The notes beneath the pieces were generated by a model. The model had not been told where the DNA came from. It saw nothing but the letters and a program-made list of their open reading frames with translations, and ran no database searches. Of a DNA stretch of 64,000 bases, positions 31,773 to 45,193 are shown in pieces. The stretch comes from Bacteroidaceae bacterium. GTDB taxonomy: Bacteria; Bacteroidota; Bacteroidia; Bacteroidales; Bacteroidaceae. Numbering within the stretch: the stretch's first letter is position 1; every line of letters begins with the position of its first letter. The position numbers were made by a program, and so were the translations under genes. The stretch covers positions 19,446 through 83,445 of the forward strand of contig JAGCDQ010000008.1 in assembly GCA_017651245.1 (NCBI GenBank), written 5' to 3'.

Positions 31773-33209
31773 ATGACAACAAAGACGAATACAATAGAAT
31801 GCGTCTTCAGCATCTTTCGTGAACTGAACCAAATACCACGTCCTTCTCATCATGAAGAACGGGTGGCTGACTATCTCTGCCAGTTTGCAGAGCGACTCCA
31901 TCTGGAATATGAGCGTGACAAGGAGAATTGCGTGGTGATCCGTAAAGCTGCCAGCCCTGGGTGTGAAAAGGCAGAACCCATCGTGCTGCTCAACCACATG
32001 GATATGGTTTGTGTCGGGATGGCTGATCCGCTGAAAGATTCCATCGAGGCGTATGAGGAAAACGGTTGGATGAAGGCACGAGGCACGTCGTTGGGAGCGG
32101 ATAATGGCATCGGACTTTCAATGGCACTTGCCGTTCTTGAAGACGACAGCATCGTGCATCCAGCATTAGAGGTCATCACCACCACAAACGAAGAGGATGG
32201 TATGTCGGGGGCCTCGCAGTTGAGCAAGGATTTCCTCAAAGGTCGCAAGGTCATCAACCTCGATTCTGAAGACTATGACACCATCACAACAGGTGCTGCA
32301 GGAGCCTGCTTGCAGTTTCATCGCATCCCAATACAGCGAAAGCCCGTGCCAGAAGGGCTTTGCTGGAGTCGCATCCGAATAGAAGGAGGACTGGGCGGAC
32401 ACTCAGGCGTGGACATCAACAAGGGACGTTGCAGCGCAATCCTCCCAGCAAAATCCATCCTTAAGGCTATCAGTCAACGGAACGACATAGAGGTGGCTCA
32501 CATCAATCTAGGTGAAGCCAACGCCTCGATTGCCTCGAAAGGCGAAATCATCGCGCGCATCCCTACAGGAGAGGCTTCCGAATACCTCCAACAAACCATC
32601 GAGAACATCAATCATTGGATGCATGAGGAATTTGGCAATACCGACCCACACATTCATTGTTGCATCGAAGCTTGTGAACAGCTCGACACCATCATTCCTC
32701 AAGAGGTTCTGACAGCATTGGTGAACTGTCTGGAGCAAGTGCCACAAGGTGTGGTGAAGATGAGCAAGACGATGCCAGGAACAGTGGAGACATCCAACAA
32801 TATAGGACGCATCGTGACAGAAAAAGACCACATCTTCGTCTCCACTCACACGCGCAGTTTCATCGACGACGATATGGCTGCCCTCAGCCAAGAAATCGCC
32901 AAAGTCTTTCCAAAATCCGAAGTCGTGATGTCCGCTCCTGCATGGCAAGAAGACCAACAATCTCCTTTCCTTCAACTGGTTAGCGACACCTTCCAAGACG
33001 TGTTGGGTTGGCGTCCCCGCATGGTGGCGATGCACTTTGTCCTCGAGGCAGGTTTCTTTGTGCAGCACTATCCCGGCATCCAAATCGCCAGCATCGGTCC
33101 TCGCATCGTAGAGCCCCACTCCACCAGCGAACGCATCGAACTCTCCACAATCCACGACATTTGGCAAGTGCTCCTCAAACTGCTCCAACGATTGGCAGGT
33201 AAAATGTAG
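31773..33209 (+). CDS. pepD: Aminoacyl-histidine dipeptidase (carnosinase-type)
   Basis: A 478-residue M20-family metallopeptidase that cleaves Xaa-His and other dipeptides. Metal and catalytic residues are visible in order: LLNHMDMV (His and catalytic Asp), GADNGIG (bridging Asp), TTNEEDGMSGA (catalytic Glu and metal Glu), DSED, and the final His in VEPHSTSERI. A dimerisation lid lies between. Start 31773 is used because upstream in-frame codons overlap the promoter. No signal peptide is present, so it is cytoplasmic. Transcribed alone; the large repeat region follows it directly. Confidence 0.9.
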   Translation: MTTKTNTIECVFSIFRELNQIPRPSHHEERVADYLCQFAERLHLEYERDKENCVVIRKAASPGCEKAEPIVLLNHMDMVCVGMADPLKDSIEAYEENGWMKARGTSLGADNGIGLSMALAVLEDDSIVHPALEVITTTNEEDGMSGASQLSKDFLKGRKVINLDSEDYDTITTGAAGACLQFHRIPIQRKPVPEGLCWSRIRIEGGLGGHSGVDINKGRCSAILPAKSILKAISQRNDIEVAHINLGEANASIASKGEIIARIPTGEASEYLQQTIENINHWMHEEFGNTDPHIHCCIEACEQLDTIIPQEVLTALVNCLEQVPQGVVKMSKTMPGTVETSNNIGRIVTEKDHIFVSTHTRSFIDDDMAALSQEIAKVFPKSEVVMSAPAWQEDQQSPFLQLVSDTFQDVLGWRPRMVAMHFVLEAGFFVQHYPGIQIASIGPRIVEPHSTSERIELSTIHDIWQVLLKLLQRLAGKM

Positions 33210-33231
33210 CATATCGTAAAATACCCTAACA

Positions 33232-33455
33232 ACCTAACATTCGTCTTCAAATGGATTGTGGTTCAGTTAGTTGTCTACGTTAGGTCTTGTGCGAAGACCT
33301 AACATGGACCTAACACTCACCTTATCAGGCAGCAGTCAAAGAGATATCAGTGTGAGATTAAAATGTTAGGTTAATGTTAGGTCTTGTTTATAGACCTAAC
33401 ATACGAATATGGTTGATATACAGTTAAATGCAAGCAAAATGTTAGGTTGTTAGGT
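33232..33455. repeat. Nine GTTAGGT/ACCTAAC motifs with two hairpins
   Basis: GTTAGGT or its complement starts at 33232, 33279, 33297, 33308, 33365, 33376, 33394, 33441 and 33449. Two pairs make perfect hairpins: GTTAGGTCTT (33279-33288) with AAGACCTAAC (33294-33303), and ATGTTAGGTCT (33374-33384) with AGACCTAACAT (33392-33402). They may terminate pepD transcription or bind a protein. Confidence 0.85.
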
Positions 33456-33588
33456 CTTTTTGCAAAAAAGTTCTCTTTTCCAAGAAAAACTTCCTCTTAC
33501 CCTTCCAATTTTTGTGCCCCCACGGGAGAGATCTTGCGCCCCCGTGAGGAAAATATTTTTCTCTAACTAGGCAGCAAAAATTGCTTCC

Positions 33589-33730
33589 CCCTAAGGGAAA
33601 ATTTTGCAGCCCCTAGGGGTAACAAAAATTTCCCTTAGGGATTGCAAAAAATTGCCGACGGCAATCCTACCTTTTGCCGTCGGCAAAACGATACTTTGCC
33701 GCCGCCTCTTTTGTGCTTTGCCGTCGGCAA
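33589..33730. repeat. CCCTAAGGGAAA inverted repeat and GCCG-W-CGGC palindromes
   Basis: CCCTAAGGGAAA (33589-33600) is inverted at 33629-33640. Three palindromes follow: ATTGCCG-A-CGGCAAT (33651-33665), TTTTGCCG-T-CGGCAAAA (33672-33688) and TTGCCG-T-CGGCAA (33718-33730). The spacing is irregular. Confidence 0.8.
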
Positions 33731-33750
33731 TTTAAAAACAGCCTTCTGGT

Positions 33751-33816
33751 AGTCCGCTTGGCACTCTCTGATAGTCCGCTTGGCTCGGACTCCCCTTCCG
33801 CTTGGCTTGGACTTCC
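33751..33816. repeat. 22-bp tandem repeat, three units
   Basis: TCCGCTTGGC recurs at 33753, 33775 and 33797, an exact 22-bp period. The array abuts the first 42-bp repeat at 33817. Confidence 0.85.
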
Positions 33817-33900
33817 AATAACTCGCCTCTGCTGTTCAATACTCGTGCGTTATTAAGAAATAAGGTGCCTCTGCTGAGGAATAAGCGTGCGTTATTGAAA
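33817..33900. repeat. 42-bp repeat, cluster 1 (two units)
   Basis: Units begin at 33817 and 33859 (AATAACTCGCCTCTGCTG and AATAAGGTGCCTCTGCTG) and end in a GTTATT-type segment followed by a run of A's. The same unit recurs at 34605-34730. Confidence 0.85.
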
Positions 33901-34419
33901 AAAAAGTTTTAGAAAAGTTTGGAGGATAAGGAAATTTTGCCTTTTCTTGATTTCACTTGACAGTTTTCACCGGGTTAAACTGAATTACTTGTCAACATCG
34001 TTTAAATCGTACTGAAAACCTTGTCAGTCGAATACGTTGAGGTGTTTTGTTGCCTCCCGAGGGTACACTTGTTGGCTCCTCGGGGGAACACTTGCAGGCT
34101 CGGGAGGGTGCAACTGTAAGTTCGAGGGGACAATTTATTTGCAATTCTACCCCTACTTTTTGTATTGAGACTGGTCATTTGACGACAAATACCCCTCCAA
34201 ATGAGATGTTGAGGCTGATTTTTTGAAAAGCCTTCGAGGGCACAAAGTGGCAGATATGGCATCAAAACACAAGGTTTATGCCTGTTTTTGAGCCCTAAAA
34301 AAGCCTATTTTTGAAGGAAACTGTCCTATTCTAATCCATTAGTGTCTTGAGTTGGGAAATGAGAATATGCTGCATCTTATTGTATTACAGCCTTTTAAAA
34401 AAAAGACAAACAACTGAGT

Positions 34420-34566
34420 GTGACAGTTACAGTTGTGACAGTTTATTTTTAAGGGTATCGCACTTTTCTCTATATTCTATATAACTATATATATATGAAT
34501 TAATTAGATAGTATTTAAAGAGATATGTAGTGCTTGTTTTTTAACTGTCACAACTGTAACTGTCAC
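34420..34566. repeat. 24-bp perfect inverted repeat with 99-bp AT-rich spacer
   Basis: The arm at 34420-34443 (GTGACAGTT-ACAGTT-GTGACAGTT) is repeated exactly in inverted orientation at 34543-34566. Each arm also contains two copies of GTGACAGTT. The spacer is almost pure A/T in its middle (ATATAACTATATATATATG). The shape suits an invertible segment or a protein-binding/iteron site, but no TAnnTTTG promoter is found in the spacer on either strand. Confidence 0.9.
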
Positions 34567-34604
34567 GCGTTTAGGCTGATTTTTCTCTATAAAGTATATT
34601 TCCC

Positions 34605-34730
34605 AATAACCTGCCTCTGCTGTTCAATACTCGTGGCTTATTTCCCAATAACCTGCCTCTGCTGAACAATAAGCGTTCCTTATTGGGCAATAACCTGCCC
34701 TTATTCAGGAATAAGTGCCGCTTATTGAAA
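34605..34730. repeat. 42-bp repeat, cluster 2 (three units)
   Basis: Units start at 34605, 34647 and 34689 with AATAACCTGCC and end in (G/C)TTATT; the period is exactly 42 bp. Cluster 1 is about 700 bp upstream. On the minus strand the array is open and would read as 14-residue RLLxNK-type repeats, but there is no sign that it is translated. Confidence 0.88.
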
Positions 34731-34747
34731 AAAAGAAGAAAATTGTT

Positions 34748-34778
34748 TTTGTGGTTCTCAAAGTTTTCTCTACCTTTG
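34748..34778 (+). promoter_or_regulatory. Consensus promoter before the R-M genes
   Basis: TTTG (34748-34751), a 19-nt spacer and TACCTTTG (34771-34778) match the Bacteroidota consensus exactly. Transcription would start near 34785, almost 300 nt ahead of the methyltransferase start, unlike the short leaders elsewhere in the window. Confidence 0.8.
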
Positions 34779-34784
34779 CCATCG

Positions 34785-35060
34785 GTTCGGGGAAAAATCC
34801 GGACTATAACAAAAGCATTCGCTATTATTTCGCGCATAGCCAAGAGCGTCGGAAACTCTATTTGGTATAACAAGCACAGAAATAATATGTGACAGGTGGA
34901 CTATAATGGTTCTTCTGTTCTCGTTGTATTAGCGATGCACACGCACAGCGTGATGCATCCAGTAAACGAGACAGAGGCTCCATCCGACGCCGCCTCTTGC
35001 TATGCGCAATGGAGCATCACGCTTCTTTTGTGTTATAGTGTGACTGATAGTCGATGCTAA
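34785..35060 (+). ncRNA. Candidate structured leader or ncRNA before R-M genes
   Basis: GATGCACACGC (34934-34944) pairs with GCGTG-A-TGCATC (34948-34959), enclosed by TCTCGTT (34919-34925) with AACGAGA (34965-34971). A competing fold pairs GCGTGATGC (34948-34956) with GCATCACGC (35014-35022), which is followed by a T-rich TTCTTTT. GCTCCAT (34977-34983) and ATGGAGC (about 35009-35015) can also pair. Mutually exclusive hairpins with a U-rich end look like an attenuator or small RNA. No known RNA family was recognised. Confidence 0.45.
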
Positions 35061-35079
35061 TTAAACGCATCATCATATC

Positions 35080-36441
35080 ATGTTACATCTCTCAGAATAT
35101 TATGCTCGGATAGAGTCAGAGGAAGAAAACATTGGTTTTGTTCAAGAATCTCAGATTCCAATCCATTTCCTAGAAGAAGAAACTCCTACTCAAGGATATC
35201 GCTTGCTGTCGCTGTTTTCAGGTTGCGGGGGTATGGATATTGGTTTTGAAGGAGGCTTCATTGCCCCTAGAAAGAGTTTTGCCCCAAACAGTTCTTTTAT
35301 AGACCATGTAATAAATGACAAATGGGTTTTTCTTTGTAAGAATCGTTTCAACACGGTGTTTGCCAATGACATTCTACCAGAAGCTAAAGTCGGATGGACA
35401 ACATTCATGAGCAGATATAGGCACACTCCTGAAACATACAAGCTCATGAGTATAGTGGATTTGGTAAAGATGCACAATAGTGGTGCAGACATCTTTCCGA
35501 AACAAATTGACGTGGTGACAGGAGGTTTCCCGTGCCAGGATTTCAGTATTGCGGGCAAACGTAAGGGATTTGATTCTCAAAAAGACCATGAAGGACATTT
35601 ACGTGCTGAAGATGTACCAACAGAAGAGAGTCGAGGAAAATTATATTACTGGATGAAACAAGTGATAGACATTACTCGTCCGAAAATATTTATAGCCGAG
35701 AATGTGAAAGGTTTGGTGAGTTTGGGCGACGTTAAGGACATCATCCAACAAGATTTTGCCTCAGCAGATGGGAATGGATATATTGTGTTGAATCCTCAAG
35801 TTCTTCATGCTGGCAATTATGGTGTTCCTGAATCCAGAGAACGCGTTATTTTTATAGGAATTCGTATAGAGGGACTAAAGAAAGAAGCTTATCGAGCTTT
35901 GACGCAAGATTGTGTTCCTGAAAGATATAATCCTTATCCCCAACCAACTCATAGATGTACTATAGAAGGGGGGCAACTCTTGCCAATGGTCACAACAAGT
36001 GATGTTCTTGCAGATTTGCCAGAACCTGATGACGCATTTGACTTGGCACAGAAAATCTATTCCAAAGCAAAATATCTCAGTAATGGAAGTCAAGGACAAA
36101 CGGAGATAAAACTTAATTCAATTGGTCCCACTATTCGTTCTGAGCATCATGGGAACATTGAGTTTCGACGACTCTCGGCAGAACATGGCGGTACACATAC
36201 AGAAGAGCTGTTAAACGGATTGGATGAACGAAGACTCACTCCACGTGAGTGTGCTTTAATCCAGACATTCCCCCCTGATTATCACTTTGTCATGAGAAGT
36301 GATAAAGGACGTGGATTTCTATTAAGTTCTTCAGCAGCTTACAAGGTAATTGGCAATGCCGTTCCACCAGTGCTTGCATATCATATTGCGAAAAGAATAG
36401 AAGAAGTTTTACCTTTATATTTTTCAGAAAAAGATGGATGA
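35080..36441 (+). CDS. DNA (cytosine-5-)-methyltransferase of type II R-M
   Basis: A 453-residue C5-cytosine methyltransferase. Motif I is FSGCGGMDIGFE (from residue 46). Motif IV is PCQDFSIAGKRKG with catalytic Cys152. Motif VI is ENVKG (Glu207), motif VIII is ESRERVIFIG, and the end carries RRLTPRECALIQTFP and GNAVPP. The target-recognition region lies between about 270 and 370, but its site cannot be read. It protects DNA from the endonuclease encoded next, whose start lies inside its last codons (8-bp overlap). Codons are visibly richer in A/T than in neighbouring housekeeping genes, pointing to horizontal acquisition. Confidence 0.93.
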   Translation: MLHLSEYYARIESEEENIGFVQESQIPIHFLEEETPTQGYRLLSLFSGCGGMDIGFEGGFIAPRKSFAPNSSFIDHVINDKWVFLCKNRFNTVFANDILPEAKVGWTTFMSRYRHTPETYKLMSIVDLVKMHNSGADIFPKQIDVVTGGFPCQDFSIAGKRKGFDSQKDHEGHLRAEDVPTEESRGKLYYWMKQVIDITRPKIFIAENVKGLVSLGDVKDIIQQDFASADGNGYIVLNPQVLHAGNYGVPESRERVIFIGIRIEGLKKEAYRALTQDCVPERYNPYPQPTHRCTIEGGQLLPMVTTSDVLADLPEPDDAFDLAQKIYSKAKYLSNGSQGQTEIKLNSIGPTIRSEHHGNIEFRRLSAEHGGTHTEELLNGLDERRLTPRECALIQTFPPDYHFVMRSDKGRGFLLSSSAAYKVIGNAVPPVLAYHIAKRIEEVLPLYFSEKDG

Positions 36442-43381: not shown

Positions 43382-45193
43382 ATGAATCTTACAAGGATCA
43401 GACGCAAGGAAATCAAGCTCAATCAAGCTATCACCGAATGGCTGAAGGGTGATCATTCAGAACGGCAAATCGTACTGATGATTAGCCTGATGGTAGGTGT
43501 GTGCACAGGTCTAGCTGCTTTCGTCTTGAAATCCTTGATTGAGGAGATTAAACACCTGCTTACATCAGGTTTTGTGGCTGAAGACACCAACCTGCTCTAT
43601 CTGCTCTTCCCAGCGATTGGTATTCTCCTCTCCCTGCTCTTTGTCAAATACATTGTTCGTGGCGACATCAGTCATGGAGTCACGAAGATTCTATATGCGA
43701 TGTCGAGAGGTCGTAGCCGTATCAAGTCGCACAACCGTTGGTCAAGCATCATCGCCAGTGCCATCACCATTGGTTTTGGTGGTTCTGTGGGAGCCGAGGC
43801 ACCTATCGTGCTGACAGGTGCTGCATGGGGTTCAGACTTTGGCAAACGGTTCCATTTGCCTCCCAAGACCTTGATGCTACTCGTCGGATGTGGTGCTGCA
43901 GGTGCTGTGTCTGGCGTGTTCAAGGCGCCTATTGCGGGGTTGGTATTCGTGCTTGAGGTACTCATGCTCGATCTGAGTTTCTCTTCCCTGTTACCACTGA
44001 TGGTCACCAGCATCACTTCCGTATGCGTGTCCTACGCCTTCTACGGAACTGCTCCCCTGTTTGATTTCAATCTCAACAAGGCTTTCAGCATCGACATCAT
44101 CCCTGGCTGCATCCTTTTGGGTATCGCCTGCGGTTTAGTGAGTCTCTACTTCACTCGCACGATGAACTGGCTGGAGGGTATCTTTGGAAAGATCAAGAAG
44201 AAGCGTTATAAGTTCTTTTTAGGTGCCATCGTGTTGGGTATCTTGATTTACTTCTTCCCAGCTATGTATGGTGAAGGTTACGATGTGATCAATCAGCTCA
44301 TCAACAGTGCCTCTGCCAAAGAGATCATGCACAACACCCTTTTCTACGAGAACGACAGCAACCTGCTTATCTACCTTGGATTGGTGCTTCTGCTCAAGGT
44401 GTTTGCCACCACAGCCACTAACGGAGGTGGCGGATGTGGTGGAGTCTTTGCTCCAAGTCTTTTCCTTGGTTGCATCGCAGGTTTTCTCTTCGCCAACCTT
44501 TGGGACACGAGTCTTGGACTTATCATGGGAGAATCAGGTTATCTCTCCCCTAAGAACTGTGGACTTTATGGTATGGCAGGTTTGATGTCGGGCGTGATGC
44601 ACGCTCCCCTCACAGGCATCTTCCTGATTGCCGAACTCACAGGAGGTTACAATCTCTTTGTGCCTCTGATGATTGTGTCTGTTGTTTCCTACCTTACTAT
44701 CAACATCTTCGAGCCCCACAGCATTTATGCGATGCGTCTGGCACGTCGAGGACAACTCATCACCCACAACAAGGATAATGCCATCCTCACATTGCTGAAA
44801 CTGCAATCGGTCATAGAGCGTGATTATAAAACAGTTACGCCCAACATGCCATTAAATCAGTTCATCGTTACCATTGCAAAATCGCACCGTAATATTTTCC
44901 CAGTGGTCGATGCAGGCGGACAACTTTTGGGTGTTGTGTCACTTGACTCTGTGCGACTTTATATGTTCCGTCCCGAACTCTATCGTCAATACACCGTCAA
45001 CCAGTTCATGAAAGAGCCGCCAGCCACTTTGATGGTGAGCGATTCCCTGAAAATTGCCGCAAAGAAATTTGAAGAAACAGGGGCGTGGAATCTTCCTGTC
45101 GTCGATGAAGATCATTTATATATTGGCTTTGTTTCACGATCTGGACTCTTTACGAGTTATCGTGAAACCCTGATCAAATTCAGCCAAGAATAA
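43382..45193 (+). CDS. CLC-family chloride channel/transporter with CBS pair
   Basis: A 603-residue membrane protein. Residues about 25-440 form the CLC domain. The anion-path motifs are a divergent first one (GDISHGV where GSGIP is usual), GAEAP with gating Glu139 retained (GREGP in E. coli ClcA), and GGGCGGVFAPSLFLG. A pair of CBS domains (about 455-600) at the C-terminus may bind adenine nucleotides. Gating Glu suggests voltage- or proton-coupled chloride movement, but the altered first motif leaves ion selectivity open. Starts two bases after tsaC. Confidence 0.88.
   Translation: MNLTRIRRKEIKLNQAITEWLKGDHSERQIVLMISLMVGVCTGLAAFVLKSLIEEIKHLLTSGFVAEDTNLLYLLFPAIGILLSLLFVKYIVRGDISHGVTKILYAMSRGRSRIKSHNRWSSIIASAITIGFGGSVGAEAPIVLTGAAWGSDFGKRFHLPPKTLMLLVGCGAAGAVSGVFKAPIAGLVFVLEVLMLDLSFSSLLPLMVTSITSVCVSYAFYGTAPLFDFNLNKAFSIDIIPGCILLGIACGLVSLYFTRTMNWLEGIFGKIKKKRYKFFLGAIVLGILIYFFPAMYGEGYDVINQLINSASAKEIMHNTLFYENDSNLLIYLGLVLLLKVFATTATNGGGGCGGVFAPSLFLGCIAGFLFANLWDTSLGLIMGESGYLSPKNCGLYGMAGLMSGVMHAPLTGIFLIAELTGGYNLFVPLMIVSVVSYLTINIFEPHSIYAMRLARRGQLITHNKDNAILTLLKLQSVIERDYKTVTPNMPLNQFIVTIAKSHRNIFPVVDAGGQLLGVVSLDSVRLYMFRPELYRQYTVNQFMKEPPATLMVSDSLKIAAKKFEETGAWNLPVVDEDHLYIGFVSRSGLFTSYRETLIKFSQE

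Follow-up and report, generated by a model that had tools for sequence, protein, structure and literature searches.

The stretch of DNA analysed here (the window, 64 kb of a Bacteroidaceae genome) contains, between a pepD-like peptidase gene and a ROK gene, a restriction-modification (R-M) pair which is preceded by a mosaic of repeats, a promoter-like sequence and a predicted structured RNA (Table 1). The first gene of the pair encodes a C5 cytosine DNA methyltransferase, whose best solved relative is the HaeIII methylase, and its ORF overlaps by 8 nt that of the restriction endonuclease (REase), a protein of 391 aa for which no Pfam family was found and whose best PDB match has an E-value of 0.07. 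Methylase and nuclease genes adjoin as in a Type II R-M system, a function predicted from their sequence. The initial annotation had described an AT-rich R-M pair, and this description is borne out by the PF00145 and REase_II matches and by a GC content of about 40%, compared with 45–51% in the flanking kilobases (to the left of 33000 and to the right of 38000). No tRNA or tmRNA was found in the 64-kb window.

Table 1. Features of the locus and of the class I leader (positions in the window).
Feature	Position	Strand	Evidence or remark
pepD-like M20 peptidase gene	31773–33209	+	left neighbour of interval 33210–35079
Dispersed repeat mosaic, modules A–F and a second copy of E	33217–34740	+	repeat search, copies in own genome and genus
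24-bp 100% inverted repeat, AT-rich centre, inside module F	34420–34443/34543–34566	.	repeat search
Bacteroidetes-type promoter (presumed), TTTG (34748)-N19-TACCTTTG (34771–34778)	34748–34778	+	sequence
Predicted structured RNA leader, class I, P1 to ATG, ~295 nt	34784–35079	+	fold, homologs, covariation
P1 hairpin closing octaloop (GGAAAAAT in window, GGAGAAAT in consensus)	34784–34805	+	stem fit own 6.33 vs cross 5.41
P2 5' strand, nearly invariant	34815–34831	+	alignment
P3 5' strand, pairs 34999–35007	34832–34840	+	100% of cells paired, 4/9 pairs doubly changed
P4 5' strand, pairs 34983–34990	34846–34853	+	99.5% paired, 6/8 pairs doubly changed
P7 (34919–34925/34965–34971), encloses P8	34919–34971	+	own 7.71 vs cross-sequence 5.00, 52 rows
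P10 (34947–34956 pairs 35014–35023), then U-rich tract	34947–35032	+	own 9.68, cross 8.76
P9 pseudoknot GAGG/CCTC around P4 3' strand	34974–34996	+	100% paired
P2 3' strand = P11 5' strand, alternative pairings	35042–35057	+	alignment
P11 3' strand, last base = A of start codon	35067–35080	+	alignment
C5 cytosine DNA methyltransferase, 453 aa	35080–36441	+	PF00145, E 3.1e-49
Type II restriction endonuclease, 391 aa	36434–37609	+	PADLOC REase_II, E 1.9e-29
ROK gene	3' of REase gene	opposite to R-M pair	

Upstream of the methylase gene, TTTG and TACCTTTG are separated by 19 nt, an arrangement which we take to be the Bacteroidetes promoter pattern; a scan of 34600–35200 found no sigma-70 promoter, and the consensus promoter proposed in the initial annotation is present as one of Bacteroidetes type. 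The structured segment that it had placed here is confirmed by the folding energy of 34779–35079 (–109.4 kcal/mol; mean of shuffled sequences –75.8, z –6.95). In 48 of 55 copies of the leader, TAnnTTTG is located no more than 110 nt 5' of the RNA core, and among 492 control windows 24 have it. The copies are followed by a gene start, gene starts being first-ATG predictions in genomes which are mostly fragmented and presumably metagenome assemblies. The segment 34784–35079 would be the 5' leader of the R-M mRNA, with its own promoter upstream and its end at the methylase start codon, and this non-coding leader is very probably functional.

The Repeat Mosaic

A repeat search of 32800–35400 revealed 16 direct repeat families and 15 inverted pairs, with repeat types including GTTAGGTC, CCCTAAGGG, TTGCCGTCGGCAA, GTAGTCCGCTTGGC and AATAACCTGCCTCTGCTG, so that both the several short repeat families and the perfect 24-bp inverted repeat noticed earlier were found again; the latter has partial relatives elsewhere in its own genome and in the genus. 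The interval had also been thought to have nothing comparable in the window. Within the window, blastn with the interval as query does hit nothing but the interval, but the search of the 2.83 Mb of G000, the genome of the window, gave 86 matches at E ≤ 1, a number in which the query itself and alignments on the reverse strand are counted; of 69 candidates from the first look, 40 were scored. In 20 regions fetched for mapping, the repeats are ordered modules, complete or incomplete, located between many genes that are unrelated to each other, and the ends of the element are modular and variable. Matches occur in 21 of 61 genomes, namely G000 and 20 of 36 others of the genus; the 24 genomes from the order's other families have none. 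Promoter-like sequence adjoins the right end of the mosaic at G000:C51:16557-16607 and C61:46526-46562 as well (L038 and L034, respectively).

G026 is the relative whose DNA matches most closely; its pepD ortholog is 89% identical and is followed by copies of the pepD-side modules, with no DNA match to the window R-M genes among the matches listed. The D-E-F block of the window is 92–96% identical to a G026 copy located about 22 kb from the pepD-side copy on the same contig (the matching copies are G026:C2:21336-22364 and 44770-45133; L072, L076), and these split matches look like dispersed repeats recombining with each other. The pepD and ROK orthologs are apart in both G026 and G015, with about 37 kb between them, on one contig, in G026, and the comparison of the pepD–ROK junction yielded no clean empty site. 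At the orthologous R-M locus of another genome (L071) a divergent copy of the leader is present, with no repeat match within the 13 kb compared. Judged by this distribution, the repeats are ordinary genomic background and not part of the leader, and the two look like neighbours by chance. In fact, the composite regulatory or mobile island of the initial annotation is not supported, since the repeats are dispersed in the genome and the genus; empty-site strains with unchanged repeats, and blocks occurring at random elsewhere, had been named there as the argument against such an island, and G026 keeps the repeats adjoining pepD, with no DNA match to these genes among those listed. The suggestion that the non-coding part is functional survives for the leader, a conserved structured RNA, and falls for the repeats.

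Structure of the Leader

Covariation in the class I leader was assessed on an alignment (A2) of 52 distinct copies. The helices P3, P4, P9 and P11 are paired in 95.7% of the cells, compared with 31–40% when the partner is slid, and together they hold 16 doubly changed pairs, a result equalled by 0 of 500 shuffles (a count, not a probability). One pair of P9 is A-U in 24 copies, G-C in 19 and G-U in 9, and the sequence of P7 differs in nearly every copy shown. For P3, P4, P7 and the pseudoknot P9 the predicted fold is established by covariation, while P2, being nearly invariant, is not provable in the same way. P11 is paired in 87.7% of the cells and fits its own (8.97) and foreign (8.87) partners alike, and it appears to be supported by conservation more than by covariation. 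In the window it consists of two 5-bp pieces with an internal loop, and the gapless start-codon stem scores only 5.5; a start-codon stem of at least 7 is present in 46 of 55 copies, in 6 of 7 divergent defence copies (one of the seven, L387, has a doubtful start) and in 6 of 23 divergent others, compared with 6–10% of shuffles.

P10, which competes with P8 for the strand 34947–34956, is paired in 97.1% of the cells, the shuffles already reaching 94.4%, and could be a pseudoknot that is formed permanently; the idea of P8 as a constant hairpin was dropped, P8 being weaker than P10. The U-rich tract follows P10 in 47 of 52 copies, and a simple terminator scan gave one site, at 35011–35025, against 0.4 expected. 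An octaloop of the P1 type is present in 36 of 54 rows. A different 5' domain replaces the P1/GGAGAAAT hairpin in L165, L170, L195, L199, L205–L207, L209, L211 and L215, among others, and several copies with a variant 5' domain have GACATAT instead. In the leader at L217 (G026:C3:157101-157429) about 40 nt of the P9–P4 region are duplicated in tandem.

Distribution of the Leader

Relatives of the leader are found in bacteria of the gut and the rumen, before many restriction and other genes of unrelated kinds. In a DNA search the segment 34745–35079 matches 27 of 45 genomes of the genus, its own included, some of the matches being short pieces and others extending over about 300 nt at 72–94% identity. 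A pattern describing the core occurs in 49 of 399 family genomes (57 places, 11 of 30 genera) and the reversed pattern in none; the core pattern has no match in viral contigs, and blastn with one leader as query gave no match in phages and plasmids. At the level of the order, the pattern with one mismatch allowed hits 17 of 393 genomes, among which G000 and four outside the family (L222, L223, L231 and L233) carry the RNA on inspection; the remaining hits look like chance.

A covariance model built from 27 rows (R2) finds the RNA in at least 93 of 389 family genomes, which belong to 16 of 30 genera, and at 137 places or more, these counts being lower bounds, as four candidates per genome were scored; the E-values of the models derive from shortened calibrations and are rough. 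In 40 divergent copies outside the model training, P3 is 100% paired and P4 99.4%, with all 8 of its pairs doubly changed, as measured on an alignment fitted to the model, on which further pair types are no higher than in shuffles (470 of 500).

Genes Downstream of the Leader

The near copies surveyed number 58 distinct sequences (the 57 pattern places and two more, with one duplicate dropped), and a first downstream ORF is present in 53. With family names taken from representatives, 37 of these ORFs group with EcoRI-type adenine methylases (fragments included), four encode an unnamed protein of 770–776 aa and two HSDR_N proteins. The other ten are single: they include the C5 methylase of the window, a type IIG enzyme (L170), a PDC-S11 protein (L217), a PLD/Snf2 helicase followed by an Eco57I methylase (L185) and two doubtful ORFs far from broken RNA (L184, L204). 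The five copies with no ORF lie at contig ends (L166, L194), near one (L167), or are L176 and L187. In the EcoRI-type operon that was scanned the second gene encodes a GmrSD_N/HNH nuclease, and the R-M or defence types behind leaders comprise EcoRI-type, C5, type IIG, MmeI, N6/N4 and PLD-helicase/Eco57I.

The 770–776 aa proteins, encoded directly behind the leader at L191, L208, L213 and L216, had no match in Pfam (three scanned), NCBIfam (two scanned) or PADLOC (one scanned) and are candidates for new defence proteins. An 829 aa protein encoded first behind the leader (L215:1799-4285) and one of 825 aa encoded second (L217:2603-5077) likewise had no match in these three databases, and a protein of 246 aa is unnamed by them where scanned.

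The divergent set consists of 40 of the 137 R2 places, fetched for their lower scores (78–160 bits). Two have no ORF, and in 22 of the other 38 the ORF starts between –14 and +12 nt from the end of the RNA. Seven of the 40 are defence-related, namely L387, which adjoins methylase fragments, L388, L389, L398, L405, L409 and L414. Twenty of the 40 first ORFs, three of the seven defence ones included, and the gene of L406 (as L127) were searched against Pfam; the other cargos named in this way are acyltransferases, sulfatases, LRR proteins, a C10 peptidase, a protein kinase, a radical SAM protein, a transglutaminase-like protein and others, and some are unnamed. The idea that the RNA is specific to defence genes was therefore rejected, as divergent copies precede other accessory genes, and no single shared pathway was found among the genes, which are mostly R-M in near copies and diverse in divergent ones. 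With R-M genes dominating the part of the family near the window and diverse genes behind the divergent copies, the whole family would be a broader leader of accessory genes.

EcoRI-Type Loci and a Second RNA Class

Matches to EcoRI-type methylases occur in 75 of 251 family genomes, and 27 of the best 30 loci carry class I RNA or a second RNA, class II. Seventeen match R2 at E < 1e-17 (among them L248, L252 and L265, which are also R2 training rows), 10 others match the class II model, R1, at E < 1e-30 (L250, L257, L258, L260 and L264 being also R1 training rows), and at three (L242, L266, L269) neither class was found with the two models. Thirty C5-methylase loci of the genus served as a control; this set, which does not contain the window and L071, gave no full-length match to R1 or R2 and two weak truncated matches (L288, L290). 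The L071 leader scores 157 bits with R2, but it is also a training row; it was first recognised by eye, from helices that are formed by different sequences.

Class II has covariation of its own: among its 18 aligned sequences, 14 pairs are doubly changed. The class II pattern was found at 26 places in 24 of 398 genomes, the control giving none. Its cargo includes two LRR-type genes in G213 and a third gene with a similar N-terminus, and class II shows the same lack of restriction to defence genes. A variant leader at L125 (G005:C52) matches R1 at E 5.7e-9, and the N-terminus of the protein encoded behind it resembles that of the class II cargo L323. The genome of the window itself holds three unrelated R-M operons with such leaders, located in the window, on contig C2 (an EcoRI-type methylase operon) and on C3 (an N6/N4 methylase and a CfrBI-like nuclease behind a class II leader); at another C5 methylase of this genome, on C19 (L299), R1 and R2 found neither class.

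Separate Histories of Leader and Genes

The window leader is 88% identical to that of an EcoRI-type operon (L182) and 50% identical to that of its own R-M ortholog (L071), the methylase DNA of L071 and of the window being 74% identical, gaps counted. By these values leader and genes have separate histories and move separately. For 13 of 15 copies whose cargo is non-EcoRI or altered, the closest leader in A2 is one from an EcoRI-type operon, a count that is weak alone, EcoRI rows being the majority of A2. At L179 the EcoRI-type methylase stops after its first codons, and N6/N4 and D12 methylases follow behind the same leader, which looks like a case of cargo replaced and leader kept.

Partial copies contain the core in 11 of the 12 loci given. 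Six are without the full P3 partner and P11, and behind four of these (L121, L122, L184, L204) no operon was seen; L167, L176, L179 and L201 keep the P3 partner and P11, and L084 only P3. The other two of the six, truncated class I leaders at L116 (G011:C182) and L187 (G015:C10), precede Eco47II/C5-type R-M genes, which speaks against the complete leader being needed at these loci.

A Proposed Cis-Acting Switch and Its Alternatives

The reading that we favour, with a probability of about 0.7, is that 34784–35079 is the pseudoknotted leader of the R-M mRNA, belonging to an RNA family with no Rfam match and operating as a cis-acting switch. Such a leader would be an attenuator or a translational switch. 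With the strand 35042–35057 engaged in P2 the start region would be open, and with the same strand in P11 a hairpin would be closed against the ATG; the strand 34947–34956 would similarly be engaged either in P8 or in P10, the latter directly before the U-tract. A signal common to the hosts (a metabolite, a protein factor, or the state of the RNA polymerase or the ribosome) would shift these pairings and in this way set the amount of methylase and, through the overlap of the two genes, that of nuclease as well. The conserved alternative pairings, one on the side of the ATG mainly in R-M copies and the other beside the U-tract, suggest a cis-acting switch of this kind. Only 7 of the 40 divergent copies are defence-related and most of the others are without the start-codon stem, so that a start-codon switch cannot be the general mechanism. 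A further and more tentative step, which we regard as rather improbable, would see in the leader a large and widespread Bacteroidales sensor RNA through which many unrelated R-M and accessory operons answer one signal, possibly phage infection or the entry of foreign DNA, with control of immunity made portable by leader exchange.

The absence of a common theme in the genes behind divergent copies would agree with a passive structure of the 5' UTR, which stabilises the mRNA or evens out translation with no sensing; this is unlikely, as invariant unpaired stretches and two conserved alternative complementarities exceed the needs of a stabiliser. A separate defence RNA of guide or antitoxin type, acting in trans or forming an RNP, with a promoter of its own and its 3' end at the U-tract, would account for the promoter, the U-rich tract after P10, the large pseudoknotted fold and the HNH domain in the nuclease behind an EcoRI-type copy. 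We consider it decidedly improbable, because the same kind of RNA stands before unrelated proteins and non-defence genes, the spacing to the ATG is narrow and the P11 stem lies against it, the core is invariant and has no variable guide, and the Cas9d model scores 26 bits (cut-off 375) and the IscB model 25 bits (cut-off 175).

The differing histories of leader and cargo, together with the L179 methylase that stops early and is followed by other methylases, could also point to a fold that matters mainly as DNA, in the form of a recombination site at the front of a mobile cassette, for the exchange of defence genes behind it. This role is highly doubtful: promoter and start codon are regularly placed, covariation including a pseudoknot fits an RNA, no recombinase occurs among the cargo proteins scanned, there is no match in viral contigs (pattern) or in phages and plasmids (one leader, blastn), and the swaps are explicable by ordinary homologous recombination between leaders. 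Finally, that repeats, leader and R-M genes, which adjoin in the window, form one unit is scarcely credible, given that G026 has the repeats with neither R-M genes nor leader and L071 has leader and R-M genes without these repeats.

Comparison With Known Systems

At gathering scores Rfam 15 gave 0 matches in the window, and at permissive E-values the window region and 31 further loci gave weak matches of miRNA, sRNA, lncRNA and snRNA type, all below gathering; a known Rfam family was ruled out at both thresholds. A limited search of the literature found no description of the leader RNA, which may nevertheless have been described before. Bacteroidales-1, Bacteroides-1, Flavo-1 and related motifs are presented in PMC2864571 as candidate structured RNAs of Bacteroidetes; several have Rfam accessions, none of them matched by the leader, and the words "restriction" and "methyltransferase" are absent from the main text of that paper.

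Compared with Type II R-M systems with a C5 methylase of the HaeIII-like kind, which they resemble in their PF00145 and REase_II matches, the proteins of the window are ordinary, and the unusual part is the leader alone. The control of R-M operons is mostly explained by regulator proteins and promoters. An RNA common to unrelated R-M operons, in at least 93 of 389 family genomes, would be a layer of control invisible to gene annotation; the leader would represent a switch open to direct testing, a marker for unnamed genes such as those of the 770–776 aa and 829 aa proteins, and a new target for work aimed at finding a ligand or signal.

The omega-RNA of IscB and the HEARO RNA are of similar size and end near the start of an ORF, and the leader is like them in these respects and in the HNH protein downstream (in the EcoRI-type operon scanned); however, the IscB model stays far below its cut-off, the leader has no Rfam match, and no IscB or TnpB gene adjoins it among the proteins scanned. 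The D12-methyl, DUF3800 and abiF motifs are non-coding RNAs linked to defence or methylase genes and are known from single-family associations. The leader shares with them the location of a structured RNA beside a gene of phage-defence type, but it precedes at least six unrelated R-M or defence gene types and has no Rfam match.

The likeness to riboswitches and attenuator leaders lies in the position in the 5' UTR, which is deduced here from the promoter and the ATG, in a conserved, covarying and aptamer-like folded core with a pseudoknot, and in alternative complementarities before the start codon and the U-tract, those of P2/P11 and P8/P10 being conserved, with weak covariation for P11 and P10. 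Unlike these known regulators, the leader has neither an Rfam match nor an assigned ligand, and it is common to unrelated R-M operons and other accessory genes.
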